Shown: positions 3,999-63,986 of the stretch, piece after piece
Position numbering within the stretch: the stretch's first letter is position 1
Layout of the letters: every line of letters begins with the position of its first letter
Origin: Paenibacillus sp. oral taxon 786 str. D14
GTDB taxonomy: Bacteria > Bacillota > Bacilli > Paenibacillales > Paenibacillaceae
Reading direction: 5' to 3'
NCBI RefSeq assembly: GCF_000159955.1
Contig: NZ_GG695978.1
Span: 33,256-97,255, forward strand
DNA: 64,000 nt
Notes under the pieces: model-generated
What the model saw: only the letters and a program-made list of their open reading frames with translations
The model's database searches: none
Told to the model about the DNA's origin: nothing
Program-made: the position numbers and the translations under genes

Positions 3999-5993
3999 AT
4001 GGCCGATCAATCCTTGGGTCAGCCGATGCTGAACCTGAATAACGCTTCCGGCCTGCCGCGGCTTGATGATGTCAACGATTATACCGATTGGCTGCGGCAG
4101 CTAGATATTAACGCCCACGATTTTCCCTACATCGATTCCATATTACAACAGGGATTTGCGGAATGGCGCAAACAGATCAGCGATATGCCGGAACTCGGCG
4201 AGGCTGATTTCTTCCTTGCCGGCAGCCGCGGCGAGAAGCTGCTTGCCGATTCGTTGAACCCGCGGCAACCGCTGGAACGTTCCTGGCCTAGCGGAATGGA
4301 AGAGGTCATCAAGCAGAGCTTGTATGAGCGCAAAGCCATCGCAGCCCAGAAGGCCGACGGAGTTTATGCGGCTGTACCGGTGTATACACGCATTCATGGC
4401 GAGTTGTTTGCGGTGTTTGGCTGTCTCATTCGTGAGAGCTGCACTTCAGAGGCGATCTTGTTAGCCAAGATGGCGGCCCGGCTGTTTCAAACCTGTTTTT
4501 ATCGTTGCTTTGAGGGAATGTTCATTACGGATTTGGTCCGCATCCAGCAGCAAGCCAAGCGGGAGGAGCAGCGCCGCTCTAAGCTTTTTCAAATGGTGCA
4601 GAAGCTTCATGATAAGATCGACGTGGATTCGGTCCTGACCGAGGTGTTCGAGCGGGTGTCCGGCATGTATCCGAATGCCCGTCTGGAGTTGCTTATGTCT
4701 CAGGATCATGTAAGTCTCGATCCGCGGGTTAAATCGTTTCAATTGCTTGGACAAGGCGATGAGCTGCTCGTGAGGGCTTTCATGGAGGGCAGAATGCAGG
4801 TTAGGGAAACCGTGGATCCGAAGGGAGAAGGCGAAAGAAATTTGGAAATCGCCGTACCTCTCAGTGGCAAACAAGGGGTGTACGGGGTTTTCCACTTGCG
4901 CATCCAGCGTGAGGAGATCGATGATGTGGATTTGCAGCTGATCGGCATGCTGGCCGATACGGCCGGCACGGCATTTGAGAACGCGAAGCTGTATGAACAA
5001 TCGAATTTGCTGATCAACGAGCTGAGGCTGATCAATGAATTAACGAAACGGCTGAATCAAAGTCTGCGGCTCAAGGAAGTTTTCCAATTTGCAACCGAAG
5101 AGTTGCTATCGATTTTTCAGGCGGAGTATTGCTGTATTTCCCAATTAAACAAAGAGACAGAAACGTTCGAGATTGTGTCCAGCAATGTTCCGGGGCTGTC
5201 GAAGGAGCATTTTCCGAAAAACTATGGATTCAGCGGGCTGGTATATTCCACGCAGGAGCCGATCATTCTGTCGGACTTTCAAGCCTATGGGAAGGTATCC
5301 TCGAGATTTATGGAGGAGACGAACTCCCGCTCGCTGATCACCGCACCTTTGTTCGTCCGGGGAGAAGTGAACGGGGTAATCATGCTGGCGCACCGCAAGA
5401 CCCGCTTTTTTTCTTATGATAATTACAAGCTGCTTCAGGTCTTATCCTCACACATCGGTCTTGCAATCGCCAACGCGTCGCTGCATGCGGAGGTACGCCG
5501 GATGGCCAATCGCGATATGCTGACTGGACTTTACGCCCGCCATTACGTCGATGATGCGATCCAGGAATTCCAGAAGAAAGACACGAACGGTTCCTTAATC
5601 ATCGTGGATATTGATCAGTTTAAGCAAGTCAACGACACGTACGGGCACCAAACCGGGGATAAAATCCTGAAGCAGGTGTGCGCAATCGTCAAGAGCTCAA
5701 TCCGCAAGACAGATATCGCCGCCCGCTGGGGAGGCGAAGAACTGGCGGTGTACCTGCCCGGTGCAAGCGCTGAGAACAGCTACCAAATCGCAGAAACGAT
5801 TCGGCTGCGCGTCGCGATGGATACCGATCCGCCGGTGACCGTCTCATGCGGTATTGCTGAGTGGGTAAAGGGCGATGAGAAGCTTAGCGTGGAGTCGCTT
5901 TTCTATGAGGCGGATATGGCGCTGTATAAAGCCAAGAACAACGGGCGGAACCAGACGCAAGTCGGATCCAGAGAGGACGCCCCCTCCTCGTAA
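3999..5993 (+). CDS. GAF-domain diguanylate cyclase
   Basis: A 664-residue cytoplasmic signalling protein with no membrane segment. Residues 1-190 are not assigned but look sensory. Two GAF-type domains follow (about 195-335 and 355-495), then a GGDEF domain (about 500-650) starting at RDMLTGLYARHY. The active-site motif is GGEEL (about 577-581) in the context ARWGGEELAVYLP, with Leu where Phe is usual; this variant occurs in active enzymes. RKTD five residues upstream matches the RxxD inhibitory I-site. It should make cyclic di-GMP from GTP, with feedback inhibition. It is monocistronic, with a good SD (AAAGGAG) and a terminator at 6013-6058. Confidence 0.9.
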   Translation: MADQSLGQPMLNLNNASGLPRLDDVNDYTDWLRQLDINAHDFPYIDSILQQGFAEWRKQISDMPELGEADFFLAGSRGEKLLADSLNPRQPLERSWPSGMEEVIKQSLYERKAIAAQKADGVYAAVPVYTRIHGELFAVFGCLIRESCTSEAILLAKMAARLFQTCFYRCFEGMFITDLVRIQQQAKREEQRRSKLFQMVQKLHDKIDVDSVLTEVFERVSGMYPNARLELLMSQDHVSLDPRVKSFQLLGQGDELLVRAFMEGRMQVRETVDPKGEGERNLEIAVPLSGKQGVYGVFHLRIQREEIDDVDLQLIGMLADTAGTAFENAKLYEQSNLLINELRLINELTKRLNQSLRLKEVFQFATEELLSIFQAEYCCISQLNKETETFEIVSSNVPGLSKEHFPKNYGFSGLVYSTQEPIILSDFQAYGKVSSRFMEETNSRSLITAPLFVRGEVNGVIMLAHRKTRFFSYDNYKLLQVLSSHIGLAIANASLHAEVRRMANRDMLTGLYARHYVDDAIQEFQKKDTNGSLIIVDIDQFKQVNDTYGHQTGDKILKQVCAIVKSSIRKTDIAARWGGEELAVYLPGASAENSYQIAETIRLRVAMDTDPPVTVSCGIAEWVKGDEKLSVESLFYEADMALYKAKNNGRNQTQVGSREDAPSS

Positions 5994-7207: not shown

Positions 7208-8323
7208 ATGCGAGATCCTAGAATTCAGAAGCTGGCGGAAAACCTGGTTGGTTATTCCGTAAATGTACAACCGGGAGAGAACGTCCTGGTCGAAATGATT
7301 GGCGATGAACGTGATTTGCTGAAAGCGGTCGTGGAAGAGGTTGGGAAGAAGGGCGGGAACGCCTTCGTTGAGATTACTGACCGGGCTGTACAACGTGCGC
7401 AATTGAAATACGCCACGGAAGACGGCATCAAAACCTGGGCGGAATACGATTTAAAACGGATGCAAATGATGGACTGTTACATCGGCATTCGTGCGGGTTC
7501 TAACGTCAACGATCTGTCCGACGTACCCGAAGATAAGATGAAGCTGTACAATTCGCTTTATTCCCACCCTGTACATAGCGAACAACGGGTGAAACGTACG
7601 AAATGGGTGGTTCTCCGTTATCCGAACGCCAGCATGGCCCAATTGGCCAATACGAGCACGGAAGCGTTCGAGGATTTCTATTTTGACGTATGTAACCTGG
7701 ATTATGCCAAAATGGATCGGGCGCAAGATGCCTTGGCTGATCTGATGAACAGAACGGACAAAGTCCGGATCGTTGCTCCGGGCACCGACCTGACCTTCTC
7801 GATTAAAGACATTCCGGCGGTCAAGTGCTCCGGTCAAAGGAATATCCCGGATGGCGAAGTCTATACGGCTCCGGTCCGCGATTCCGTAAACGGCACGATC
7901 AGCTACAATACGGCTACGCTGTACAACGGAGTTACGTTCGAGAATATCAAATTCCGCTTCGAGAACGGTAAGATCGTTGAAGCTACGAGCAACGACACGA
8001 AACGGATGAACGAAATCCTGGATTCGGACGAAGGGGCTAGATATATCGGGGAGTTTGCGATCGGATTCAACCCGTATATTTTGCATCCGATGAAGGACAT
8101 CTTGTTCGACGAGAAAATTGCGGGCAGCCTTCACTTTACCCCAGGTCAAGCTTATGAGGAAGCCGATAACGGCAACCGTTCCTCGATTCACTGGGATCTT
8201 GTGCTGATCCAGCGTCCGGATTACGGCGGCGGAGAAATTTATTTTGACGATGTACTGATCCGTAAGGATGGCATTTTTGTGCTGCCTGAGCTTGAGGGAT
8301 TGAACCCGGAAAACCTGAAGTAA
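7208..8323 (+). CDS. M29-family aminopeptidase (AmpS/T type)
   Basis: A 371-residue cytosolic metallo-aminopeptidase of the thermophilic M29 family, which removes N-terminal residues from peptides. Expected metal ligands are visible: Glu in IPDGEVYTAP (about 218), Glu in GEFAIGFN (about 280), His in GSLHFTPGQAYEEA, His-Trp-Asp in SIHWDLV, and the Asp/Glu of GGGEIYFDD near the C-terminus. Length is close to the family norm of about 370-410. It has its own promoter and operator-like palindrome; the HPr-like gene follows 82 bp later. Confidence 0.9.
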   Translation: MRDPRIQKLAENLVGYSVNVQPGENVLVEMIGDERDLLKAVVEEVGKKGGNAFVEITDRAVQRAQLKYATEDGIKTWAEYDLKRMQMMDCYIGIRAGSNVNDLSDVPEDKMKLYNSLYSHPVHSEQRVKRTKWVVLRYPNASMAQLANTSTEAFEDFYFDVCNLDYAKMDRAQDALADLMNRTDKVRIVAPGTDLTFSIKDIPAVKCSGQRNIPDGEVYTAPVRDSVNGTISYNTATLYNGVTFENIKFRFENGKIVEATSNDTKRMNEILDSDEGARYIGEFAIGFNPYILHPMKDILFDEKIAGSLHFTPGQAYEEADNGNRSSIHWDLVLIQRPDYGGGEIYFDDVLIRKDGIFVLPELEGLNPENLK

Positions 8324-49945: not shown

Positions 49946-50285
49946 TGTTTGGAAGTTGCGGTGTGGGTGCGGCTGTGGCTGTGGTTGTGGCTGTGGTCCG
50001 TGGCCGTGGCTCTGGACGATTTTAACGGAACTGAGGGCCCTTATTTGACCATTTCCCGGCGATTTCCCGGTGTAACGGAACTCAGAGACCTTATTTGGCT
50101 CGAAAGGCTGATCATAAGCTGCTAAAGCTCCAAATAAGGTCTTTCCGTTCCGTTAGCCACAGTAATCGCTGCAAAAAGGATAAATAACGTCTCTCAGTTC
50201 CGTTAGGCTGCTGTCCGGGTTGCGTCTGAACTACGTGATCCGAAGATGCGTTTTTGAACTACCTCTATAAAGTGAGGGGATGAAG
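49946..50285. repeat. intergenic region with a hexamer tandem repeat and four copies of a 25-bp repeat
   Basis: About 49969-50011 is a degenerate GGCTGT/GGTTGT tandem. Then a unit of the form TAACGGAACTCAGAGACCTT + ATTTGG occurs four times: forward at 50023-50047 and 50073-50098, reverse at 50130-50155 and 50181-50205. The inner pair can form a long stem. No reading frame is present. This looks like a REP/BIME-type array between the DegV gene and recG; it may also act as a terminator or mRNA end. Confidence 0.75.
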
Positions 50286-52331
<2,046 letters not shown>

Positions 52332-52354
52332 ATTGATACGGCAAGCAAGCATCA

Positions 52355-52389
52355 AACCGTTCGCGGGATCCGCGGACGGTTATTTTTTT
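52355..52389 (+). terminator. recG terminator
   Basis: AACCGTTCGCGG pairs with CCGCGGACGGTT, followed by ATTTTTTT. Confidence 0.9.
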
Positions 52390-52540
52390 GCACAAAATAC
52401 ATCATAAGAAAAACGTCTATCGATGTACATTCAAAGTTGACAGACCGCGTTTAAGCGGAAGTTTTTCTTGCGATATCAGGATGCCAATGCCCCGAAGTTT
52501 ATACTTTCTGATAACTTAAAAAAACAGGAAGTAACACGAT

Positions 52541-52581
52541 TTGACATATTATTTCAATAAAAAAGTAATATATTGAAATAA
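52541..52581 (+). promoter_or_regulatory. promoter and probable MurR operator of the murQPR operon
   Basis: A -35 TTGACA (52541-52546) overlaps the start of an 11-bp perfect inverted repeat, TTATTTCAATA (52549-52559) and TATTGAAATAA (52571-52581), with an 11-bp spacer. The -10 must lie inside the repeat (AGTAAT 52564-52569 at 17 bp). TTTCA-type arms fit RpiR-family operators, and the operon encodes one, so MurR autorepression is the likely mechanism. Confidence 0.65.
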
Positions 52582-52655
52582 AATATCAAATAGATTATAA
52601 TTATGTCGAAATCACTTACAACTAGGATTGACGCAAACAAAGGAGTGTATCTTAT

Positions 52656-53561
52656 ATGCTGGAAAATCTGACAACCGAGGCGAGAAACGAGCGAACGATG
52701 CGCTTGGATGAAATGGAAGTGACCGAGCTGCTTACGGTGATGAACGAAGAGGACGCGAAAGTAGCCGGAGCGGTTAAAGAGGAAATTCCCAAAATCGCCC
52801 AGGCCGTGACTGCCATTACGGAGTCGCTCAAAAAAGGGGGCCGGCTGATTTATATGGGGGCTGGCACAAGCGGACGGATCGGTTTGCTGGATGCGGTGGA
52901 GTGTCCGCCGACATTTGGTACTTCCCCGGACCAGGTGGTTGGGCTGATCGCAGGCGGCAGCAACGCTTTTATCAAGGCCGTTGAGGGAGCGGAGGATCGG
53001 GCCGAGCTCGGTCGGACGGATCTGCAAAACCTCGGGCTTACCGCCAAGGATGCGGTCGTCGGAATCGCCGCGAGCGGTCGTACGCCTTATGTCATCGGCG
53101 GATTGGAATACGCCAAGCAAGTTGGTGCAAAGACGATTAGTATCAGCTGCAACAAGAATGCGGTGATCAGCACCATTTCTGACATCGCGATCGAGATCGA
53201 GAACGGTCCCGAGGTGCTGACTGGGTCGACGCGGCTTAAAGCGGGAACCTCGCAAAAGCTGGTCTGCAATATGCTGTCTACCGCGTCGATGATCGGCTTA
53301 GGTAAGGTTTACGGCAATTTGATGGTTGATGTTCAGCCCACCAATGAGAAGCTGGCCGATCGGGCGAAGCGGATTGTGATGGAGGCAACTGGCTGCGATG
53401 CATCAACCGCTGAGAACACCTTGCGCCTTGCCGAAGGGAAACCGAAACCAGCGATCCTGATGATTTTGACAGGATGTTCGTATGAGGTAGCCTTGGAGAA
53501 ATTGGAGGAGAACCAAGGGTTTATCGGTAAGGCTGCGAAGTCTGCGTCTGCAATACGTTGA
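52656..53561 (+). CDS. murQ: N-acetylmuramic acid 6-phosphate etherase
   Basis: A 301-residue SIS-domain lyase cleaving lactate from MurNAc-6-P to give GlcNAc-6-P. TEARNERTMRLD start, IYMGAGTSGRIGLLDAVECPPTFG (glutamate-containing active-site loop, about 66-88), IAASGRTPYV and LSTASMIGLGKV are present. First gene of a MurNAc recovery operon with its PTS transporter and regulator. Confidence 0.97.
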   Translation: MLENLTTEARNERTMRLDEMEVTELLTVMNEEDAKVAGAVKEEIPKIAQAVTAITESLKKGGRLIYMGAGTSGRIGLLDAVECPPTFGTSPDQVVGLIAGGSNAFIKAVEGAEDRAELGRTDLQNLGLTAKDAVVGIAASGRTPYVIGGLEYAKQVGAKTISISCNKNAVISTISDIAIEIENGPEVLTGSTRLKAGTSQKLVCNMLSTASMIGLGKVYGNLMVDVQPTNEKLADRAKRIVMEATGCDASTAENTLRLAEGKPKPAILMILTGCSYEVALEKLEENQGFIGKAAKSASAIR

Positions 53562-53604
53562 AGAAACAAGTAAGACCATCCTATAGAGAGCAGGAGGCTT
53601 CCCA

Positions 53605-55056
53605 ATGAGCAAATATGAAACTATGGCGAAACGGATCTTGGAATCCATCGGCGGTTCTGACAATGTGGAGCAATTTACGAACTGCATGACCCGGTTGCGG
53701 GTGTCGGTCCGGGACCGTAGCCAAATTGACGAAATCGGGCTCAAACAGATCGAGGGCGTACTTGGTGCGGTTGATGATGAGACGTATCAAGTAATCCTCG
53801 GACCGGGTGTTGTGAATAGTGTGGCGGAGGAATTTGGCAAACTTCTGAAAGAAGAGGGGCATGGCGGCCAAGGAGCAGCAGCTGGCGGCCAAACGGCGAC
53901 GCTCCGCGAGGGCTCGGAGATCAAGGCAGAGCTCAAAAAGAAGAACAACACGCCTTTCAAAAATTTCTTGCGAAAAATCGGCAACATCTTTATTCCACTG
54001 ATTCCCGCGTTGGTAGGGGCCGGGATTATCAACGGTATCGCCGGCTTGATCAATAACCTGATTACTTCCGGCAACGGGGCGGACTGGCTGCTTACGCTCC
54101 AACCGATTATTAGTGTCATTGGCTCGGCCTTCTTCGGGTATTTGACGATCTTTGCCGGGGTGAATGCCGCGAAAGAGTTCGGGGGAACGCCCGCGCTTGG
54201 CGGTGCCGTGGCCGCGATCATCGTTGCACCGGTGGTGGCGAATATCTCTTATACCTATCCCCTGTTTGGTGAAATTAAGCTGAATGCGGGGCAGGGCGGA
54301 ATCATCGGGGCGATTTTGGCCGCAGGGCTGATCTCTGTGTTGGAAAAATGGATTCGTAAACGGATGCCGGCAGCGATTGATATCATCGTAACTCCTACCA
54401 TTGCGCTGTTGCTTGCAGGCTTGGTTACCGTGTTCTTCCTGATGCCGGTCAGCGGTATTATCTCTCAAGGCATCGGACAGGTAACAACTTGGCTGTTGGC
54501 CCATGGCGGACCGCTGTCCGGCTTCGTTCTCGCTGCGCTGTTCCTGCCGCTGGTCATGTTCGGCTTGCACCAGGCGCTCATTCCGATTCATGCCGAATTG
54601 ATTTCGCAGGTCGGATACACGGCGTTGCTGCCGATCCTGGCCATGGCGGGGGCGGGGCAAGTCGGCTCGGCGATCGCCATTTATATCAAGCTGAAGCATA
54701 ACGCGAGAATGCGCAACATGATCAAAGGGGCGTTGCCCGTCGGATTTCTTGGCATCGGCGAACCGCTCATTTACGGGGTCAGCTTGCCTCTGGGCCGGCC
54801 GTTTGTAACCGCTTGTCTTGGCGGTGGGTTTGGCGGGGCTGTGCTTGGTTTGTTCGCGATGACGGGGAACTTCATCGGCTCGGTGGCGATTGGACCTTCC
54901 GGCCTCGTCCTGATCCCGCTGATTCAAGGCCCAATGGGAATCGGCATGACGATTCTCGGTTACTTGGCCGGGTTGATCGTCTCCTATGTCGCCGGATTCT
55001 TGCTCACGTATTTCTTTGGTTTTACAAAGCAGATGCTTATAGAGCATAATAGATAA
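53605..55056 (+). CDS. murP: PTS system MurNAc-specific EIIBC component
   Basis: A 483-residue transporter. EIIB domain (about 1-85) with the phospho-Cys in FTNCMTRLRV (about 28); an EIIC membrane domain of about 10 segments (about 125-480) of the glucose family with GIGEPLIYGVSLPL (about 373-386). No EIIA domain, so phosphate must come from an EIIA elsewhere. Context with murQ and murR points to MurNAc, though GlcNAc or sucrose specificity cannot be told from sequence alone. Confidence 0.9.
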   Translation: MSKYETMAKRILESIGGSDNVEQFTNCMTRLRVSVRDRSQIDEIGLKQIEGVLGAVDDETYQVILGPGVVNSVAEEFGKLLKEEGHGGQGAAAGGQTATLREGSEIKAELKKKNNTPFKNFLRKIGNIFIPLIPALVGAGIINGIAGLINNLITSGNGADWLLTLQPIISVIGSAFFGYLTIFAGVNAAKEFGGTPALGGAVAAIIVAPVVANISYTYPLFGEIKLNAGQGGIIGAILAAGLISVLEKWIRKRMPAAIDIIVTPTIALLLAGLVTVFFLMPVSGIISQGIGQVTTWLLAHGGPLSGFVLAALFLPLVMFGLHQALIPIHAELISQVGYTALLPILAMAGAGQVGSAIAIYIKLKHNARMRNMIKGALPVGFLGIGEPLIYGVSLPLGRPFVTACLGGGFGGAVLGLFAMTGNFIGSVAIGPSGLVLIPLIQGPMGIGMTILGYLAGLIVSYVAGFLLTYFFGFTKQMLIEHNR

Positions 55057-55169
55057 TACAAGCCAGCAGAGAAACGTTTGGCTGCCTTTAACCAGGCCGC
55101 CGCGTTTCTTTTGCGTTTTATGGGAATGGAAATAGCATCAGACGGATTGGGAATACGGAGGGGATGACC

Positions 55170-56024
55170 GTGACGACGGGAAGCGTACTTACGCAAATGG
55201 AGGCCATGCTGGAACAACTGCCTGAATCGGAAAGAAAGGCGGCCCAATATATTTTGACGGCTTCGGCGGAAGTCTCCGGCTTAAGTATCCATGCGGTCGC
55301 CGATAAAGCGGGGACCAGTGCGGCGGCGATTACCCGGCTATGCCGTTCGCTGGGGCTGAGCGGATTTCCTGATTTGAAAATGCGTTTGTCGGTCGATAAT
55401 GCCAAACCGCAAAGACCAGGCTATTATGACATTGAACGCGGGGAGACGATTCAAAACGTCATTCAAAAGACGGTCTCCAACAGTCTCCAAGCCATTCAAG
55501 ATATGATGCTTCACCTGCAGCCCGAACTGATCGAGCAGGTGGTGGACAGCTTCCGAGAGGCTTCCGTCATCCATATGTACGGGGTAGGCGCTTCGGCGAT
55601 CGTCGCAGCGGATGCCGCACAAAAGTGGCTGCGCCTGGGGAAGCAAGCGTTCGCTCTGCAGGACGAGCATCTAATTGCGGCCGCGCTGGCCAGCGCTCCG
55701 CCGGGGGCCTTGTTTATGGGCATCTCTTACAGCGGGAACACCAAGGAAGTGCTGCAATTGTTCCGGGTTGCCCAAAAGTACGGCGTGCGCACCATCGGCT
55801 TGTCCCGTTTCGGCAATCATAAAGTAGCCGAGCTGGCCGATTTGATGCTGTACACGCCGCAGGCGCCGGAAGCGACCCTGCGTAGCGGGGCGTCCAGCTC
55901 GCGGTTGGCACAATTGGTCATGATCGATATTTTGTTCTTCGCGTACGCCTCGACGCAATACGAAGAGACGATCCTCAGGTTGAGTCAAACCCATGAGGCA
56001 ACGGCGTTCCTCAAACAGAACTAG
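55170..56024 (+). CDS. murR: RpiR-family regulator, probable MurR
   Basis: A 284-residue regulator: N-terminal RpiR helix-turn-helix (about 1-75, SIHAVADKAGTSAAAITRLCRSLGLSG) and C-terminal sugar-phosphate-binding SIS domain (about 125-255, with GVGASAIVA and GISYSGNTKEV). It should sense MurNAc-6-P and control the murQP promoter. GTG 55170 is preferred (GGAGG 8 nt upstream); ATG 55164 is immediately next to the SD. Confidence 0.88.
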   Translation: MTTGSVLTQMEAMLEQLPESERKAAQYILTASAEVSGLSIHAVADKAGTSAAAITRLCRSLGLSGFPDLKMRLSVDNAKPQRPGYYDIERGETIQNVIQKTVSNSLQAIQDMMLHLQPELIEQVVDSFREASVIHMYGVGASAIVAADAAQKWLRLGKQAFALQDEHLIAAALASAPPGALFMGISYSGNTKEVLQLFRVAQKYGVRTIGLSRFGNHKVAELADLMLYTPQAPEATLRSGASSSRLAQLVMIDILFFAYASTQYEETILRLSQTHEATAFLKQN

Positions 56025-56128
56025 CGGCTTTCCCGCGTGCTTTTGGATTTTCAGGCACTATGGACAGCCTTACCGTCATATATTAGGGTTGAAGTCCGGA
56101 AATGACGGGACAGGAGGTGCTAGTCACG

Positions 56129-56419
56129 ATGCCCAGCTATTATCAGTATGGAATCAGTCCGCAGCTGGTCGAACGGGTGAAGTTGAAAATGAAAAATCCG
56201 GCGATCAAAGAGCGGATGAAACAGGTCGTCGACGGCCTCACCCGCGCGGATTTGCAGGATCGCGTTAAGGTGCGCAGGCTCGTTAGAACGGCCGCTTCTG
56301 TGCTTGGCGAAAGATTGAGCGGCGTTCAGGAAGAGCAAATCGTCCAATTCGTCATCGATCAGCGAATCGACCCGCGGAATACGCTTCACTTGCTGCGCTT
56401 ATGGGGAATGTTCCGCTAG
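56129..56419 (+). CDS. small protein resembling stage VI sporulation protein F
   Basis: A 96-residue helical protein (MPSYYQYGISPQLVERVK) with the pattern LQDRVKVRRLVRTAASVLGERLS...EEQIVQFVIDQRIDPRNTLHLLRLWGMFR. It resembles the SpoVIF family, needed for late coat assembly in Bacillus, through the K/R-R-L-V-R...S..-E-..IV.-I...-I pattern. The match is by recall and not certain. ATG 56129 follows AGGAGG by about 11 nt; a longer frame starts at 56102. Confidence 0.55.
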   Translation: MPSYYQYGISPQLVERVKLKMKNPAIKERMKQVVDGLTRADLQDRVKVRRLVRTAASVLGERLSGVQEEQIVQFVIDQRIDPRNTLHLLRLWGMFR

Positions 56420-56576
56420 AGCAAGCGCGCAGAGATGCGGCGGGACGGGTGATAAGGCCCTGGGGACCGGTACCCCGGCGGCCTTTTGCTATTTTCTCGG
56501 AGGGATGATCCGGGGCCAGGCGAGATAAGCTAAACGATACATGAGCGGGGCACAAAGCGCCGGGAGTCATTTCTGC

Positions 56577-56623
56577 TTGCCAATCTCCATGTTTTGTTTT
56601 ATATTGACATGAGAGTAGGTCAA
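56577..56623 (+). promoter_or_regulatory. promoter with operator-like inverted repeat before the tetR-map operon
   Basis: TTGCCA (56577-56582), 17-bp spacer, TATATT (56600-56605). TTGAC (56604-56608) and GTCAA (56619-56623) form an inverted repeat overlapping the -10 and the expected start site, a typical TetR autoregulation position. Confidence 0.55.
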
Positions 56624-56645
56624 AAATAAAAGGAGGTTGTGGCGG

Positions 56646-57326
56646 ATGACCCCGCGTACGAAGGAACAAAATGAAGAGATCAGGCTGCGCCGGCTTGCTC
56701 AAATTCGTGTCGCGGCCGCCGATGTGTTTCTTGAGAAAGGCCTGACGTTAGAGATTCGGGACGTGGCGACCAAGGCCGGGCTTGGTTACGGCACGGTCTA
56801 CCACTATTACAGTAATAAAGGGGATCTGCTGCATGACGTGCTGTGGACGGCGATGGACCGGGCCGGGGAATGGATCGACCTGAGGACGGAGGAGCAGGAA
56901 GCGGCCGCCGATTCCCTTGTTGCAGCAGGTACCCGGCTGCTGAAGCTGTGGGCCAAGGATCACGGCGTTTATCTGTTGTATAAGCTGGCGGCGGATGGCT
57001 TCCAGCTGCTGCCGGAAGCCCGGGCACTGCCGCTTGCGGAGACGTTCCGCCGCGAGGTGTTGCTGCCGTTCGCCGCGGTGCTGGAGCGCGGTTTGCCGCC
57101 GGGTTCCGGAGAGACCGCTGCGACTGCTAGCTTAGCGGCGGGACAAGGCGCTGGGGGAGAGGGCGTCCGTCAGGCGGAATTGTTGCTGGCTGCGCTGGCC
57201 GGCTGCGCCGGCTCTCCGCTGCGCCAAGGCACGCTGGACCACGAAGCGGCAGACATTGCGCGTCTGCTATTGTATCGGCTGTCGGAGCGAACCCGATGGA
57301 CCCTCGAAGGAGTGAGAGCTGAATGA
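56646..57326 (+). CDS. TetR-family transcriptional regulator
   Basis: A 226-residue regulator: basic N-terminus, then the TetR helix-turn-helix (about 15-60: AAADVFLEKGLTLEIRDVATKAGLGYGTVYHYYSNKGDL), then a variable ligand domain with an Ala/Gly-rich stretch (about 155-175). ATG 56646 follows GGAGG; a GTG/ATG-type start at 56637 is unlikely. It overlaps map by ATGA (57323-57326), an unusual pairing of a repressor with an essential aminopeptidase. Confidence 0.88.
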   Translation: MTPRTKEQNEEIRLRRLAQIRVAAADVFLEKGLTLEIRDVATKAGLGYGTVYHYYSNKGDLLHDVLWTAMDRAGEWIDLRTEEQEAAADSLVAAGTRLLKLWAKDHGVYLLYKLAADGFQLLPEARALPLAETFRREVLLPFAAVLERGLPPGSGETAATASLAAGQGAGGEGVRQAELLLAALAGCAGSPLRQGTLDHEAADIARLLLYRLSERTRWTLEGVRAE

Positions 57327-58069
57327 TTATATTGAAATCGCCGCGGGAAATTGAAGAGATGAAACGGGCGAATCAGATTGTTGCGGATTGTCACCGGGAG
57401 GTCGCCAAAATGATTCAACCCGGGGTCACGACAAAGGAAATTAATGATTTTGTAGTCCGGCATATTACGAAGCTGGGCGGCAAGCAGTTTACGAAAGGGT
57501 ACAACGGGTTCCCGGCCGAAACCTGCGCATCGGTGAACGATGTGGTGGCCCACGGGTTCCCTTCGGACCGGCCGCTGCAGAACGGCGATCTGCTCAAGCT
57601 GGACATCGTTGCGGAGGCGGACGGCTGGTTTGGCGATTCGTGCTGGTGTTATGCGGTAGGTCAGGTGAGTCCTGAGGCGGAAAAGCTGATGCGGGTGACG
57701 AAGGAATGTCTGGAGCTGGGGATCGCCCAAGCGATTCCAGGCAACCGGCTGGGCGATGTGACTTCGGCGATCCAGAAGCATGCGGAGGCGAACGGTTATT
57801 CCGTCGTACGCGATCTGCTCGGTCACGGGATCGGACGCAGCCTGCATGAGGAGCCCAACTACGAGCATGTCGGCGTAGCGGGTAAGGGCATTCGGCTCAA
57901 GGAAGGCATGGTGTTTACGATCGAGCCGATGATCAATGAAGGCACGTTCCGCATCATGATTGACGATGACGGCTGGACGGCGCGTACGGCGGACGGCAAA
58001 TTGTCGGCCCAATTCGAGCATACGATCGCGCTGACGGCGGACGGACCGCTGATTTTAACAGCTCAATAA
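57323..58069 (+). CDS. map: type I methionine aminopeptidase
   Basis: A 248-residue cytosolic metallopeptidase removing the initiator Met. The five ligands are visible: Asp in LKLDIVAEA (about 94), Asp in GDSCW (about 105), His in GHGIGRSLHEEP (about 168), Glu in TIEPM (about 201) and Glu in AQFEHT (about 232). It lacks the N-terminal SecM/zinc extension found in some Gram-positive forms. It is not the secY-linked copy typical of ribosomal clusters and is probably a second MAP. Confidence 0.95.
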   Translation: MIILKSPREIEEMKRANQIVADCHREVAKMIQPGVTTKEINDFVVRHITKLGGKQFTKGYNGFPAETCASVNDVVAHGFPSDRPLQNGDLLKLDIVAEADGWFGDSCWCYAVGQVSPEAEKLMRVTKECLELGIAQAIPGNRLGDVTSAIQKHAEANGYSVVRDLLGHGIGRSLHEEPNYEHVGVAGKGIRLKEGMVFTIEPMINEGTFRIMIDDDGWTARTADGKLSAQFEHTIALTADGPLILTAQ

Positions 58070-58086
58070 GCAGCAAGCAGGAAAGG

Positions 58087-58132
58087 AAGGCGGATGCCCA
58101 AAGTCCGAAGGGACAAGGGATCCGCCTTTTTT
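58087..58132 (+). terminator. map terminator
   Basis: AAGGCGGAT (58087-58095) pairs with ATCCGCCTT (58120-58128), with an inner short stem, then TTTT. Confidence 0.85.
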
Positions 58133-58182
58133 GGCATGCTTTCGCTCTGCCAAATTATCCAACATAAACCTGTTGCGAAAGG

Positions 58183-58224
58183 GAATGTTTGTTCGTATTA
58201 TGAGTATAATAGGAACAGATGTTC
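58183..58224 (+). promoter_or_regulatory. SOS control region with one good and one partial LexA box
   Basis: GAACAGATGTTC (58213-58224) fits the Bacillus LexA core GAAC-N4-GTTC. GAATGTTTGTTC (58183-58194) matches with one arm base changed. TATAAT (58205-58210) lies between them; the -35 is not clear. Binding of LexA to either site would cover the promoter. Confidence 0.7.
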
Positions 58225-58242
58225 TGATTAGAAGGTGAGCAT

Positions 58243-58275
58243 ATGACAGACAGTATGAAGAAGGGAGACGCATGA
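58243..58275 (+). CDS. possible 10-codon leader ORF of the SOS operon
   Basis: ATG 58243 with GAAGGTGAGC directly upstream opens MTDSMKKGDA and ends in a TGA that overlaps the ATG of the next gene (58272-58275). It could be a translational coupling device or a shifted start relic. The downstream gene also has its own AAGGGAG, so the peptide may be without function. Confidence 0.3.
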   Translation: MTDSMKKGDA

Positions 58276-58658
58276 GCCCTATTCCCTGGCAAACGCAGGA
58301 GGAAGCGGAGATGATCAAGCAATATGTGCTGCTTTCTCTGTTGCTTGATGTGCTGGAACGAGACCAGCGCGCATTGGCATCCGCTTCGTTGAAGCTGCCT
58401 CAGGTATACAAGGGGCTGATCCGCTTGCTGCAGAACGCCGCAGCCGCGGATTTGGCCCGGGTGCGCCAAGGCATGCGTGAGCATGGACTGAAGGTATTCG
58501 AAGAGCGGCGGACGAAGCTTGGGATTGAAGCCCGCTATTTATGCCGGGGGTATACGTACGAGTTCTCCATGCTGTGGGGATTGGTCAAGGCGGAACTGAT
58601 CCGCCGGCTTTGCGCCTATCTGGGGATCGATGTGAGGAAAGAGGGGATGTTCTCATGA
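58272..58658 (+). CDS. SOS-operon protein of unknown function, paralog A
   Basis: A 128-residue, mostly helical soluble protein. It is a clear paralog of the next gene's product; both share EEA/EED..IKQYVLLSLLLDVLERD-type starts, a central R/K-rich helix and the strongly conserved pair ARYLCRGY and FSMLW (about 86-101) followed by LVKAEL. I recognise no named domain and no catalytic motif; the Cys in YLCRGY is conserved in both. SD AAGGGAG is 5 nt before ATG 58272. It is first in a LexA-boxed operon with a Y-family polymerase and overlaps the next gene by ATGA (58655-58658). Confidence 0.8.
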   Translation: MSPIPWQTQEEAEMIKQYVLLSLLLDVLERDQRALASASLKLPQVYKGLIRLLQNAAAADLARVRQGMREHGLKVFEERRTKLGIEARYLCRGYTYEFSMLWGLVKAELIRRLCAYLGIDVRKEGMFS

Positions 58659-59044
58659 AAGGTATGCCCCCAGCACCCTTGGAGACAGAAGAAGATCTCC
58701 AGTTGGTCAAAGAATACATTTTACTCCCTGTTCTTTTGAATGTGTTGGAAAGGGATATGAAAGCATTGGGGACAGTAAAGCTAAAGATGGACGTGGTGTA
58801 CGCAAGAGCCTTACACACTGCCCAAGATGTGATCACTGCAGATTTGACGTCGGTTCGGAAACAAATGCGCGACAGAGGGATCAAGGTGTTCGAGCAACAA
58901 CGTACTGAATTGGGCATGGAGGCCCGCTATTTGTGCAGGGGCTATCAACATAGATTTTCCATGCTTTGGAGCTTGGTGAAAGCGGAGCTTAATCAATATT
59001 TGAGTAAGTATCTTAACGTCGACTTAAGGAGCGACGGCCTATGA
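58655..59044 (+). CDS. SOS-operon protein of unknown function, paralog B
   Basis: A 129-residue paralog of the preceding protein, about half identical over the alignable length by eye (LLxVLERDxxAL, VFExxRTxLGxEARYLCRGY, FSMLWxLVKAEL). Base composition is lower in GC than paralog A, so the two have diverged for some time. The ATG overlaps the stop of A, and the stop overlaps the polymerase start (ATGA at 59041-59044). All four genes of this operon are thus coupled. A role as accessory of the polymerase is inferred from context only. Confidence 0.8.
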   Translation: MKGMPPAPLETEEDLQLVKEYILLPVLLNVLERDMKALGTVKLKMDVVYARALHTAQDVITADLTSVRKQMRDRGIKVFEQQRTELGMEARYLCRGYQHRFSMLWSLVKAELNQYLSKYLNVDLRSDGL

Positions 59045-60285
59045 AAAGCGATAACAAAAGTCGAGTCATCATGCTGGCGGATTGTCAATCCTTTTACGCA
59101 AGTGTTGAGAAAGCGGCCCACCCCGAGTATGCAGACAAACCTGTTGTGGTTGCAGGAGACCCCGCGCGTCGTTCCGGGATTATCCTCGCCGCGTGTCCCC
59201 TTGCCAAGCAATATGGGATCACTACGGCAGAGAGGCTGGGAGAGGCACTTGCCAAATGCCCGGATCTTGTGGTCATTCGTCCCCGTATGGAGGAATACAT
59301 CAGAGTATCCTTGCAAATTACAGAAATTTATCAATCCTACACGGACTTGGTAGAGCCGTACAGCATAGATGAACAGTATTTGGATGTCACGGGAAGCTTA
59401 CAGCTTTTTGGCGGTCCTGATAAGATTGCGAGGAGCATTCAGGATAAAGTCATGAAGGAGACGGGCGTTCGTGTACGCATTGGAATTAGTGAAAATAAGG
59501 TGCTCTCCAAAATGGCCTGCGATAATTTCGCCAAACGTAATGCTTCGGGGATTTTTCACTTGCCTGTGAAAGATCTGCAAGAAGTGCTTTGGCCGTTGCC
59601 GATTCATCAGATGTTTATGGTGGGCTCCCGGATGCGCCGGCATTTAATGAAAATGGGGATATATACCATTGGCCAGCTGGCCCAGACTCCCCTGACCAAA
59701 TTAAGAGCCAAATGGGGAGTGAACGGGGAAGTTCTGTGGCTCATTGCCAACGGCAAGGATCATTCCCCGGTAACGCCAAGTACACACGATTTGCAAAAAG
59801 CCATCGGCCATCAAATGACCCTTCCCTACGATTATTGGGAGTTTGACGATATCATGGTTCCCCTATTAGAGCTCTCAGAGTTAGTATGTCAACGAGCTCG
59901 AATGAAAGGCTATATGGGCTGGGTGGTTTCGGTAGGGTGTCAAGGAGCGGATTTTGATCACCCTTCCGGCTTCTACAGACAAATGAAATTACCCGACCCG
60001 ACGAACCTCACGGATGAGGTGTTCCATGCAGCGAAAAAACTATTTAAACGACATTGGGATGGGTTGCCCATTCGAAAAATCGGGGTCACTCTAAGTCAAT
60101 TGGTAAGCGATCAGGAATACCAACTTACTTTATTCAATGACCGCGAGGCAAAGTTAGCGTTGGAAAGAACCACTGACCGAATTAAAGAGAAATACGGAAG
60201 TACCGCGATCATGAGGGCCTCTTCTTTAAAAGCTTCGGGCCAAGCGCGGGATCGAGCGCAAAAAATTGGAGGACATTATAAATGA
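59041..60285 (+). CDS. UvrX-type Y-family DNA polymerase
   Basis: A 414-residue translesion polymerase of the UvrX/YqjW branch. First metal Asp in MLADCQSFYASVE (about 14), catalytic YSIDEQYLD (about 106-114, Asp109 and Glu110), helix-hairpin-helix thumb (about 165-215), and a little-finger domain (about 240-350). A beta-clamp-binding motif QLTLF is at about 361. Relatives occur in SPbeta prophage and the B. subtilis yqj SOS locus. It is coupled at both ends to its neighbours. Confidence 0.93.
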   Translation: MKSDNKSRVIMLADCQSFYASVEKAAHPEYADKPVVVAGDPARRSGIILAACPLAKQYGITTAERLGEALAKCPDLVVIRPRMEEYIRVSLQITEIYQSYTDLVEPYSIDEQYLDVTGSLQLFGGPDKIARSIQDKVMKETGVRVRIGISENKVLSKMACDNFAKRNASGIFHLPVKDLQEVLWPLPIHQMFMVGSRMRRHLMKMGIYTIGQLAQTPLTKLRAKWGVNGEVLWLIANGKDHSPVTPSTHDLQKAIGHQMTLPYDYWEFDDIMVPLLELSELVCQRARMKGYMGWVVSVGCQGADFDHPSGFYRQMKLPDPTNLTDEVFHAAKKLFKRHWDGLPIRKIGVTLSQLVSDQEYQLTLFNDREAKLALERTTDRIKEKYGSTAIMRASSLKASGQARDRAQKIGGHYK

Positions 60286-60617
60286 GTAAAAAACTGCAAG
60301 GAAACGGTCTATTCGAATCGTCCAGAATGATGCTTCCGGAACACAAGGAGGCTTACATCCTGCACCAGCAGAACTTGCGAAAGAGTCCGCCGCCACAATT
60401 AGATGATCAAGAAATGGAACGGATATCCATGCTCATTGCTGAATCAATGCAGCTCAGGAAAGAGGTAATTTTAGTATTATTCGGTGAATTTAATGTAACG
60501 GAAATAACAGGAGTCGTGACAAAAATTGATCTACAACAAAAAAACATCAAATTCACCCATGGCAATGATTTTCGCTGGATAAAGGTATCGGACATTATTG
60601 ACGGTATGTGGAAATGA
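60282..60617 (+). CDS. YolD-like family protein
   Basis: A 111-residue protein with KLQGNGLFESSRMMLPEHK at the N-terminus and the FNVTEITGVVTKIDLQQKNIKF strand pair, typical of the YolD family that accompanies UvrX/YqjW polymerases in Bacillus and prophages. YolD is proposed as the UmuD-like partner. It overlaps the polymerase by ATGA; a terminator follows. Confidence 0.9.
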   Translation: MSKKLQGNGLFESSRMMLPEHKEAYILHQQNLRKSPPPQLDDQEMERISMLIAESMQLRKEVILVLFGEFNVTEITGVVTKIDLQQKNIKFTHGNDFRWIKVSDIIDGMWK

Positions 60618-60639
60618 TTTGTAATAAGGAAAACTTGAA

Positions 60640-60690
60640 GAGCTATCCTTAAAAGTCATCGCAGATGGCTTCCGGTATAGCTCTTTTTTA
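60640..60690 (+). terminator. terminator of the SOS operon
   Basis: AGAGCTAT (60640-60647) pairs with ATAGCTCT (60678-60685), with additional inner pairing, followed by TTTTT. Confidence 0.75.
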
Positions 60691-60782
60691 CTGAAATATG
60701 CAAAGGTCTGAAAGGAGCCAATAGATACAGAGGAACAATTAGTGGATCTCGAACCTGAATATTTTAGATGCCCTTGCGAAAT

Positions 60783-60862: not shown

Positions 60863-61240
60863 ATGAACAGGAAAGAAAAGGATTCATGTGAAATTTACTG
60901 TTACGACGAACCTAAAGTCCGAAAGGTACAAAATGCGCTCGAAAGACAAAATATTCAAGGCATGATTAAGATGTTCAAGGTTTTAGCTGACGAAACAAGA
61001 ATGAAAATCGCCTTTGCCCTGTGCGAAGAGGATGAATTATGTGTTTGTGATGTGGCTAACATCATCGGCTCTTCAATGGCCACAGCCTCACACCACCTTC
61101 GCACCTTAAAACAGCTTGGCCTAGCCAAATACCGCAAGGATGGTAAATTAGTTTTTTATTCGCTGGAAGATGACCATGTTCGTCAACTGGTGCAGCTAGC
61201 TTCTACTCATTCGAGGGAGTTGATCATCAATGGAAAATAA
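60863..61240 (+). CDS. cadC: ArsR/SmtB-family cadmium-responsive repressor
   Basis: A 125-residue homolog of pI258 CadC. Metal-site cysteines are visible: Cys9 and Cys13 in [10 protein letters not shown], and ELCVCDV (about 58-60) in the alpha-3 region. The winged helix carries [31 protein letters not shown]. It overlaps cadA by 11 bp. Confidence 0.95.
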
Positions 61241-63368
61241 AATTGAAAACACCGAAGATAAAAACGTCTACAGGGTTCAAGGCTTTACCTGTACGAATTG
61301 CGCAGGCATTTTCGAGAAAAATGTAAAAAATTTGCCGGGCGTAAAAGACGCGCAAGTCAATTTTGGAGCATCTAAAATCACCGTTTATGGAAGGACTACA
61401 GTTGAGGAATTGGAAAAGGCCGGCGCGTTTGAAAACCTGAAAGTTACACCTGAAAAGCAACGATCTATTGAAAAGAAAAAGCCTTTCTGGAAAGAACATT
61501 GGAACGTACTGCTTTCGGCTATCTTGCTTGTCGCAGGGTACTTATTAGGTGAGCAGTACGGTGAGGAAAGCATCTTATCCGCTATTTCTTACGCGGCTTC
61601 TATTATTATCGGCGGTTATGAATTATTTAAAAAAGGAATCAAAAATCTTTTCCGGCTTCAGTTCGATATGAACACCCTAATGACGGTCGCCATCATCGGT
61701 GCCGCGGCGATCGGAGAATGGGGCGAAGGCGCGACTGTCGTTATCTTGTTTGCGATCAGTGAAGTTTTGGAACGTTACTCCATGGAAAAAGCGCGTCAAT
61801 CCATTCGTTCCCTGATGGATATTGCACCGAAGGAAGCTCTGATCCGCCGCGGTTCCGAAGAAATTACGGTAAACGTCGATGATATACAGGTTGGCGATGT
61901 CATGATTGTAAAGCCAGGTCAAAAACTTGCAATGGATGGTGTTGTTATTAAAGGAACATCAACCATTAACCAAGCCGCGATTACTGGCGAAACGGTTCCC
62001 GTGACGAAAACAATTGACGATGAAGTGTTCGCTGGTACATTGAACGAAGAAGGTTTGCTTGAAGTCAAAGTAACGAAGCGCGTCGAGGATACAACGATTT
62101 CTAAAATTATTCACCTTGTTGAAGAAGCTCAAGCTGAAAGAGCGCCATCTCAAGCGTTTGTTGACCGATTCGCGAAATACTATACACCTGCGATTATGAT
62201 TTTGGCATTAGGTATTGCGGTTGTTCCACCTCTGTTCGTCGGTGCAGATTGGGGCGATTGGGTATATCGAGGATTAGCGTTGCTCGTCGTCGGCTGTCCT
62301 TGCGCATTGGTCATTTCGACACCTGTTTCGATTGTTACAGCCATCGGCAACGCGGCGAAAAATGGCGTTCTTATCAAAGGCGGCATTCACCTTGAGGAAG
62401 CCGGCAGACTATCCGCAATTGCGTTTGATAAAACAGGTACTCTGACGAAGGGGGTTCCAGAAGTAACAGATGTCGTTACTTTCGGAACGAAAAACGAAAA
62501 TGAATTGCTTTCAATCGCGGCAGTTATCGAAAAAGGTTCGCAACATCCGCTCGCATCCGCGATTGTTCGTAAAGCGGAAAACCTCGGAGAAGACCTAACC
62601 CTAGTCGTTGAGGATTTCCAATCGATCACCGGGAAAGGTGTTAAAGCCAATGTAAACGGGGAATTGTATTACGTCGGTAGTCCGAAACTCTTTGCTGAAC
62701 TTCATTCCGACATCAGCGTTGAAACGAATCAGCGCATTGAAGAATTACAAAAACAAGGGAAAACGGTTATGGTATTAGGCACAGAACAACAGATTCTTGC
62801 CTTAATAGCAGTCGCTGATGAAGTGCGTGATTCCAGTACAGTCGTAATTAAGCAATTACACGAAATTGGAATCAAGAAAACGATTATGCTTACGGGTGAT
62901 AATCAAGCAACCGCCGAAGCAATCGGGCGGCGTTTGAATGTTACAGACGTTAAAGCTGATCTAATGCCCCAAGATAAATTAGATTACATCAAGCAGCTTC
63001 GTAAAGACTATGGTAATGTTGCGATGATTGGCGACGGCGTTAACGACGCGCCTGCGCTCGCGGCTTCAACGGTTGGTATCGCTATGGGCGGCGCGGGTAC
63101 GGATACTGCCCTCGAAACCGCAGATATTGCTTTGATGGCTGACGATTTAAGCAAATTACCCTATACGATTCGACTAAGCCGAAAAACCCTTGCAATCATC
63201 AAGCAGAACATTACGTTTTCACTTGGTATTAAGCTCTTAGCTTTGGCTCTAATTGTCCCTGGATGGTTGACGTTATGGTTGGCCATTTTCGCAGATATGG
63301 GGGCCACGCTTATTGTTACATTGAATAGCCTTCGTCTGTTAAAAGTCAGAGGTAATAATCGGATATGA
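61230..63368 (+). CDS. cadA: cadmium/zinc-transporting P1B-type ATPase
   Basis: A 712-residue metal efflux ATPase. One N-terminal metal-binding domain (GFTCTNCAG, about 14-22), TGE in ITGETVP (about 252), CPCAL membrane motif (about 357), DKTGTLT (about 400), HP in GSQHPLA and [10 protein letters not shown] (about 602). It exports Cd2+, Zn2+ and Pb2+. Base composition is clearly lower in GC than the housekeeping block, which suggests acquisition. Its stop overlaps the start of the methyltransferase remnant by ATGA. Confidence 0.95.
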
Positions 63369-63986
63369 ATAACCGTTGGAATAAAGTGATTTATCGGTTA
63401 TGGGCACCCTTTTATGATTCTCTTTTCAATTCCGGTCCTTTTTTAAAGGCACGGAAAAAGATCTTTGAGAACCTCGACATTAAGCCTAAAAGCAAAAGTT
63501 CTTTTTGTTTGTAGGCGTCGGGACAGGAGCAGATTTGCAGTTCATTATGGACAAAAATATTTCTGTATCTGCAATTGACTTATCATCCGAAATGCTTGAT
63601 CAAGCTAGGAATAAATATGACTCCCCCAATTTTAAGTTCATAGAAATGGATGCGCAAGAATTGACCTTTTCACCGGAATCGTTCGATATGGTTATTGCAA
63701 ATCTGATCTTATCCGTTGTCCCCGAGCCGAATCGATGTTTTCAAGAAATGATTCGGGTTACGCGAGCTGGGGGGCGAATAATCATTTTCGATAAATTTGC
63801 CCCTCCCTCGCAGGATTTGCCGGTAATAAAAAAATCCTTCGTCCCATCGTAGCAACGATGGGTACGGACATCGGACGACATTTCGAACAAATCATCATGC
63901 CGTATGAGAAACATATTCGAGTGGAGGAAGATGCATCAGCATTGTTTAACGGAATGTATCGAAAAATTATATTACAAAAAGTATAG
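63365..63986 (+). pseudogene. class I SAM-dependent methyltransferase gene broken by two frameshifts
   Basis: Starting at ATG 63365 (ATGA overlap with cadA) the frame gives [20 protein letters not shown], a typical start of UbiE-like methyltransferases, then stops at TAG 63512-63514. A shifted frame carries the SAM-binding FVGVGTGADL and IDLSSEMLDQA up to 63852, and a third frame after the A7 run near 63828 continues with RPIVATMGTDIGRHFEQII to TAG at 63984-63986. All three pieces together form one complete protein of about 206 residues. The breaks are in or next to homopolymers, so a sequencing or assembly error is possible as well as real decay. Confidence 0.75.

Follow-up and report, generated by a model that had tools for sequence, protein, structure and literature searches.

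Here, we analyzed an SOS-type operon in a 64,000-nucleotide stretch of DNA from Paenibacillus sp. oral taxon 786 str. D14 (contig NZ_GG695978.1, positions 33,256 to 97,255; hereafter the window), in which two paralogous genes, A and B, precede genes for a UvrX/YqjW-type Y-family DNA polymerase (PolY) and a YolD-like protein. Both paralogs belong to the YhjD family. The reading towards which we lean, as a probable though far from certain one, is that YhjD acts as an accessory of the SOS response which is recruited to PolY, and that polY serves as a docking site at which elements insert and supply a substitute polymerase module. As judged by gene order and domain matches, YhjD is built into UvrX/YqjW-type PolY operons of Paenibacillaceae, where it is encoded by its own gene in front of or behind PolY-YolD, or joined as a domain to a YolD-like arm.

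An earlier reading of the letters and open reading frames (ORFs) of this DNA (the sequence-only reading) had described four genes joined by ATGA overlaps behind LexA boxes. All four ORFs exist and are joined in this way (A to B to PolY to YolD), and both LexA cores were located. The features of the operon are as follows:

58173-58201, + strand: promoter-like site, TTGCGA-17 nt-TATTAT; 9 of 12 consensus positions, LexA core 1 in the spacer and core 2 behind
58183-58194, no strand: LexA core 1, GAATGTTTGTTC; one mismatch to GAAC-N4-GTTC, conserved in 8 related loci
58213-58224, no strand: LexA core 2, GAACAGATGTTC; perfect GAAC-N4-GTTC, conserved in 8 related loci
58243-58275, + strand: upstream ORF of 10 codons, MTDSMKKGDA; ATGA overlap with A, candidate leader peptide
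58272-58658, + strand: paralog A, YhjD family (PF26325 / phrog_34234), native first gene of the operon as judged by comparison; phrog_34234 E 5e-22, GC content 56.6%
58655-59044, + strand: paralog B, YhjD family, within the incoming block; phrog_34234 E 8e-25, GC content 46.2%, homologs with PF26325
59041-60285, + strand: PolY, UvrX/YqjW type; NF002848 660 bits (cut-off 381), IMS domains
60282-60617, + strand: YolD-like protein; PF08863 77.2 bits (cut-off 27.5)
60638-60689, + strand: terminator-like hairpin, AAGAGCTATCC ... GGTATAGCTCTT plus a T run, found by eye
58660-60705, + strand: foreign block common with genome G001; similarity to the native-type operon of genome G137 stops at 58660, identity to G001 at 60705

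A and B are 53.7% identical over 108 amino acids, and the stretches EARYLCRGY and FSMLW are common to both. Both genes are intact and translationally coupled, and the ratio of nonsynonymous to synonymous substitution rates between close strains (about 0.2 for A and 0.15 for B) indicates modest purifying constraint. The short upstream ORF retains its frame, length and ATGA overlap in all 8 A-type loci (in one with a TTG start), and it is possibly a leader peptide for translational coupling to A. PolY of the window contains the acidic motifs LADCQSFYA and SIDEQYLD; its C-terminus appears RecA-NT-like by eye. The hairpin behind yolD is absent from the output of a terminator scan which permits loops of 3-8 only.

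The paralogs had been thought to match no known family. However, both match phrog_34234, and all 37 proteins listed as homologs of B carry the precomputed PF26325 label. The assignment of A and B to PF26325 is made via these labels and not by a direct model match, and Pfam and NCBIfam scans gave no significant match for either protein. Homology to the YhjD family extends over the whole domain in both, so A and B are members of it. A profile search with the family found 1,097 proteins, several among those listed being named YhjD in UniRef. Matches to phrog_34234 were present in all 148 sampled Paenibacillaceae genomes, in 88 of 299 Bacilli genomes (27 of the 88 being Paenibacillaceae) and in one of 14 control genomes, namely B. 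subtilis. Lone family members are also carried by P. larvae phages and by plasmids (7 and 17 records, respectively). For instance, a YhjD-family gene of the P. larvae phage Tripp (5016-5402) lies beside an integrase and a repressor gene, with no polymerase annotated nearby, and plasmid pAP2 of P. polymyxa bears a lone copy (4998-5354) about 0.7 kb from a recombinase gene. Neither A nor B gave a Pfam match to the UmuD-type S24 peptidase at E up to 1.

Expression of the operon appears to be controlled by LexA, as the sequence-only reading had proposed. We counted LexA cores (GAAC-N4-GTTC) within 200 bp upstream of the YhjD domain. The perfect core alone is not significant in the window (2 per 64 kb versus 1.0 expected, a number reached in 23 of 100 shuffles); the cores are credible because of their position and their conservation across relatives. 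Of 28 operons starting with an A/B-family gene, 24 have two cores, each with at most one mismatch, in front of their first gene; the same holds for 493 of 20,000 random 200-bp stretches and for 30 of 651 taken upstream of other ORFs. A perfect core precedes 24 of these 28 family-first operons, and 27 when one mismatch is allowed, the miss being locus L038 with an element-borne B. For lone copies, whose loci were the best-scoring ones and not a random draw, the perfect core was present in 27/37 cases in Paenibacillaceae (37/37 with one mismatch), and copies from other Bacilli had it in 30/40 cases (34/40 with one mismatch). The corresponding controls were 720 of 20,000 random stretches (3.5-3.6%) and 32/651 stretches upstream of other ORFs for the perfect core, and 2,184 of 20,000 and 91/651 for the core with one mismatch. 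No perfect core was observed upstream of the 64 fused or PolY-downstream copies, and PolY genes without an upstream family member had one in 52 of 103 cases. Promoter-like sites are weak evidence alone (7 in the region versus 4.5 expected in shuffles); by eye, the TTGCGA-17-TATTAT layout with its LexA core is alike in many family-first relatives. These comparisons of sequence show that in Bacilli a LexA box usually precedes YhjD-family genes, which often stand alone. We take yhjD of B. subtilis to be a member of the LexA regulon, an assumption for which the literature searched gave no confirmation.

The suggested connection between the paralogs and translesion polymerases was assessed in 131 PolY loci of Paenibacillaceae, that is the window and 130 others out of at least 150 listed, a sample which leans to window-like polymerases. 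A YhjD domain (F) was regarded as beside PolY when on the same strand within 700 bp, and "arm" denotes a YolD-like N-terminus. The layouts were PolY-YolD (46 loci), PolY-(arm:F) (41), F-PolY-(arm:F) (12), F-PolY-YolD (10), PolY-YolD-F (10), PolY alone (6), FF-PolY-YolD (5) and F-PolY-YolD-F (1). The connection is thus borne out, with F beside PolY in 79/131 loci, 53 of which have it fused to the arm. In a tree of 178 F domains, in which seven loci labelled Paenibacillaceae belong to other families of Bacilli (a mislabelling that affects none of our counts), the 53 fused domains form a clade (support 1.0) with one downstream copy and one PolY-adjacent copy from another Bacilli family, and the upstream copies are spread over several clades. 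A third variant of the PolY small subunit, exemplified by YhjD of Cohnella abietis, was described in 2026 as a YqjX-like arm fused to an unrelated domain, and in the modelling given in the available part of that paper the YolD-like arm inserts into PolY (PMC12926913). By its name and layout, the domain of the C. abietis protein would be the same as that of A and B. The fusion of YhjD to an arm modelled as entering the polymerase is a physical lead on the function of the family. A and B themselves are not of this arm-fused type, as neither matches the YolD profile. In two loci (L148 and L162) PolY is followed by arm:F and then by a YolD-like match devoid of the arm (from profile position 28 or 30 to 105), an arrangement that may represent a stage in the transfer of the arm from YolD to YhjD.

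Comparison with relatives shows that A and B differ in origin. Four genomes of the same genus contain an A-PolY-YolD operon of 57-64% GC whose A is 87.0-93.5% identical to that of the window, while their native PolY is only 68.1-68.8% identical to the window PolY. P. ihumii, P. sanguinis and a genome of another genus by the grouping used (G015) each have a second PolY with 93-94% identity to the window PolY. Similarly, the B proteins of P. sanguinis and P. ihumii are 79-84% identical to that of the window, whose nearest named match is in P. barengoltzii NBRC 101215. The GC content is 46% for B, 48% for PolY and 40% for YolD, versus 57% for A and the preceding gene. The nearest genome compared, G001, is 98.4% identical to the window from 50282 to 60705. 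Synteny between G001 and G137 extends up to the end of A and resumes inside the native yolD; the 5.4-kb block in between consists, in G001, of B-PolY-YolD and arsenic genes, and replaces the native polY and most of the native yolD. The window shares this block up to 60705 and then has an ArsR-type regulator and a heavy-metal ATPase instead of the arsenic genes. The operon is a mosaic in DNA identity to G001 (PolY 98.3%, B 94.8%, yolD 86%), and since yolD is so much lower than PolY, a recombination break probably lies near it. In P. barengoltzii the gene preceding the operon is 99.3% identical to that of the window. These comparisons show a native operon of the genus consisting of a LexA promoter and A-PolY-YolD, and a lineage, that of the window, in which a foreign B-PolY-YolD block, followed by cargo, took the place of the native PolY-YolD. 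A is therefore the resident gene and B a partner that arrived with the new polymerase. Real FF-PolY-YolD tandems are found in only 4/131 loci: the window, its near-twin L037, and L039 and L040, in which the first gene has no more than about 31-37% identity to the genes of the window and its relatives. A fifth candidate, L038, was rejected as it is one broken B gene counted twice.

Elements with a related module interrupt polY in three relatives. In P. sanguinis, residues 6-285 of the native polymerase are followed by B-PolY-YolD, and residues 274-414 are located 13.9 kb after the first part. The two parts are 20.0 kb apart in P. ihumii, and in G015 the left and right parts are on two contigs. 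The three truncated polymerases are 56-57% identical to one another, and all were interrupted in codons of the conserved PLLEL stretch, with the element ends GTATC/GATAC in common and with repeats of TGAGCATAA close to either end. In all three species the left end of the element bears a close version of B-PolY-YolD. Four recombination genes are also shared, those of P. ihumii being 87-94% alike to those of P. sanguinis: two have a Phage_integrase match (E 4e-7, above the curated cut-off, and 3e-4, below it), one has an HTH_17 match, and one encodes a 196-residue protein without a Pfam match. NCBIfam gave no transposase name for any of them; the set may be akin to that of the Tn554-like multi-recombinase elements (TnpA-TnpB-TnpC). 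The cargo is a cyclic oligonucleotide-based antiphage signalling (CBASS) set in P. sanguinis (effector, cyclase, E1-E2 and JAB) and a type II restriction-like set in P. ihumii. One of the recombinases has relatives (E <= 1e-20) in 23 of 394 Paenibacillaceae genomes, and in five of these 23 (P. sanguinis, P. ihumii, G015, G492 and the degenerate case G519) a piece of polY lies within about 1.5 kb of such a relative. In G492 this piece matches residues 159-414 and adjoins a related recombinase module, which suggests that elements can also insert at a second site in polY.

In each of the element loci of P. sanguinis, P. ihumii and G015 the native first gene has a LexA core in front of it, and none was found in the interval separating B from the polY stump; the B set is therefore probably read from the resident SOS promoter. 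We propose that upon DNA damage YhjD associates with the PolY-YolD-RecA machinery, or with a partner that both have in common at the stalled fork, and that it would then help to recruit or control PolY at damaged forks, either directly or via this common partner. Solo YhjD copies may serve the same partner. An element whose promoterless B-PolY-YolD probably borrows the resident promoter could interrupt the polymerase gene of its host and still leave the host with an SOS polymerase, since it brings a matched YhjD-PolY-YolD set.

Several observations weigh against this picture of a PolY accessory and a polY docking site. Some of them concern the history of the window block. The window, 70 kb of G001 and 27 kb of P. 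barengoltzii were found to contain no recombinase genes, the block starts on its left side at a place other than the insertion site of the elements, and its right end lies beyond the window. In view of the first two points, arrival of the block on an element is one candidate explanation and homologous recombination another. We give even chances to the explanation that the B-PolY-YolD block came from a relative by homologous recombination or transformation and was never in a site-specific element there. The missing recombinase module fits it, as do the edges of the block, which lie at the start of polY and inside yolD and not at the PLLEL site, and the mosaic yolD. On the other hand, unrelated kinds of cargo stand behind the same B-PolY-YolD across strains and species, as in islands. 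A stronger form of the docking proposal makes polY the landing site of recombinase elements with a matched promoterless YhjD-PolY-YolD set and anti-phage or metal cargo, the window a takeover derivative, and YhjD a protein that must match its polymerase, as the third component of a Gram-positive mutasome; this form we hold only tentatively, rating it below an even chance.

The remaining objections concern the function of the family. The sequence-only reading had asked whether the paralogs always sit beside the polymerase. They often do in the PolY loci, but outside Paenibacillaceae the association is rare in the 40 loci examined: 36 have no PolY within about 3 kb of the YhjD gene, and 4 have one (L193, L194, L197 and L210). 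Moreover, in genome G097 (locus L241, about 7460-7860) A, two LexA cores and the leader are intact, while the native polY and most of yolD were deleted from the locus. Because of these lone genes and the persistence of A in G097, the family may act independently of the polymerase. YhjD could then be an SOS protein of general function, with RecA, DNA, replication or division as its target, and be present in polymerase operons only through shared regulation. The frequent lone copies with LexA boxes, the matches in every sampled Paenibacillaceae genome and the copies on phages and plasmids would agree with this. We nevertheless consider it rather unlikely, since fusion of YhjD to an arm modelled as inserting into PolY (PMC12926913, in its available part) in 53/131 loci is not explained by shared regulation alone. 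The distances of adjacent F and PolY also speak against it, being correlated over 20 operons (r 0.951; none of 2,000 permutations as high), a correlation that is confounded by species relatedness. In the same comparison, the PolY distances of the window fit B (row r 0.870) better than A (0.697). As for the notion that A and B are a conserved two-part unit, an obligate UmuD-like heterodimer working with the polymerase is very improbable: the two genes are intact, coupled and modestly constrained, and two YhjD domains per PolY operon recur (12 F-PolY-(arm:F) and one F-PolY-YolD-F of 131 loci), but the few real tandems come from two lineages whose first genes are unlike, four same-genus operons and G097 have A and no B, B stands directly before PolY without A in the elements, and the two genes have different origins.

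Behind the block, the window contains the following genes:

60863-61240, + strand: ArsR-family regulator, first cargo of the block; no counterpart at this place in G001
61230-63368, + strand: heavy-metal P-type ATPase, first cargo of the block; no counterpart at this place in G001

Together with a methyltransferase gene they occupy 60863-63852, and the best same-genus DNA match to the ATPase region is 80% identical (G455).

If YhjD is indeed recruited to PolY, a widespread family of unassigned role gains a testable place in the SOS response of Bacilli. Furthermore, mobile islands could use a repair polymerase gene as a docking site and, by means of a divergent replacement set, leave the host not disarmed. 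Such docking would link induced mutagenesis to the spread of defence and metal-resistance islands.

Parts of this picture are already known from the available portions of the reports cited below, namely insertion of elements in umuC-type genes, a recA island with a divergent recA and the arm-fused YhjD variant. The literature search found no earlier description of replacement of a whole YhjD-PolY-YolD set or of the resulting two-component A/B operon. The window resembles the YhjD family at large in the phrog_34234 match of A and B, the PF26325 label of the homologs of B, the distant homologs named YhjD and the lone copies with LexA boxes, and differs in having two tandem copies in a PolY-YolD operon. 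The C. abietis YhjD is likewise a YhjD-named protein tied by its neighbourhood to a YqjW/UvrX-type PolY, and 53/131 loci in our sample have such an arm-fused form behind PolY; however, as far as that protein is described in the part of the paper available, A and B differ from it in having no arm and in standing alongside a normal YolD (PMC12926913). The putative YqjW-YqjX / UvrX-YolD(-RecA) mutasome, as outlined in the available part of its report, shares with the window the PolY and YolD families in one LexA-controlled operon, whereas the window has extra YhjD-family genes in front (PMC6511836). Insertion hot spots in umuC-type genes include IME8 in yolD of Lysinibacillus (PMC13239906) and integron-like elements in rulB of pWW0 (PMC4542609). 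These are also tyrosine-recombinase elements inserted in umuC/yolD-type operons, but the accessible portions of the two reports describe no complete replacement polymerase operon inside the element. In this respect a genomic island in recA of Vibrio cholerae is comparable, as it likewise sits in a DNA-repair gene and brings a divergent copy of its target; judging from the available part of that study, the elements considered here differ in that they target polY, carry a YhjD-PolY-YolD module and, in the two whose cargo was looked at, bring defence genes (PMC4405046).

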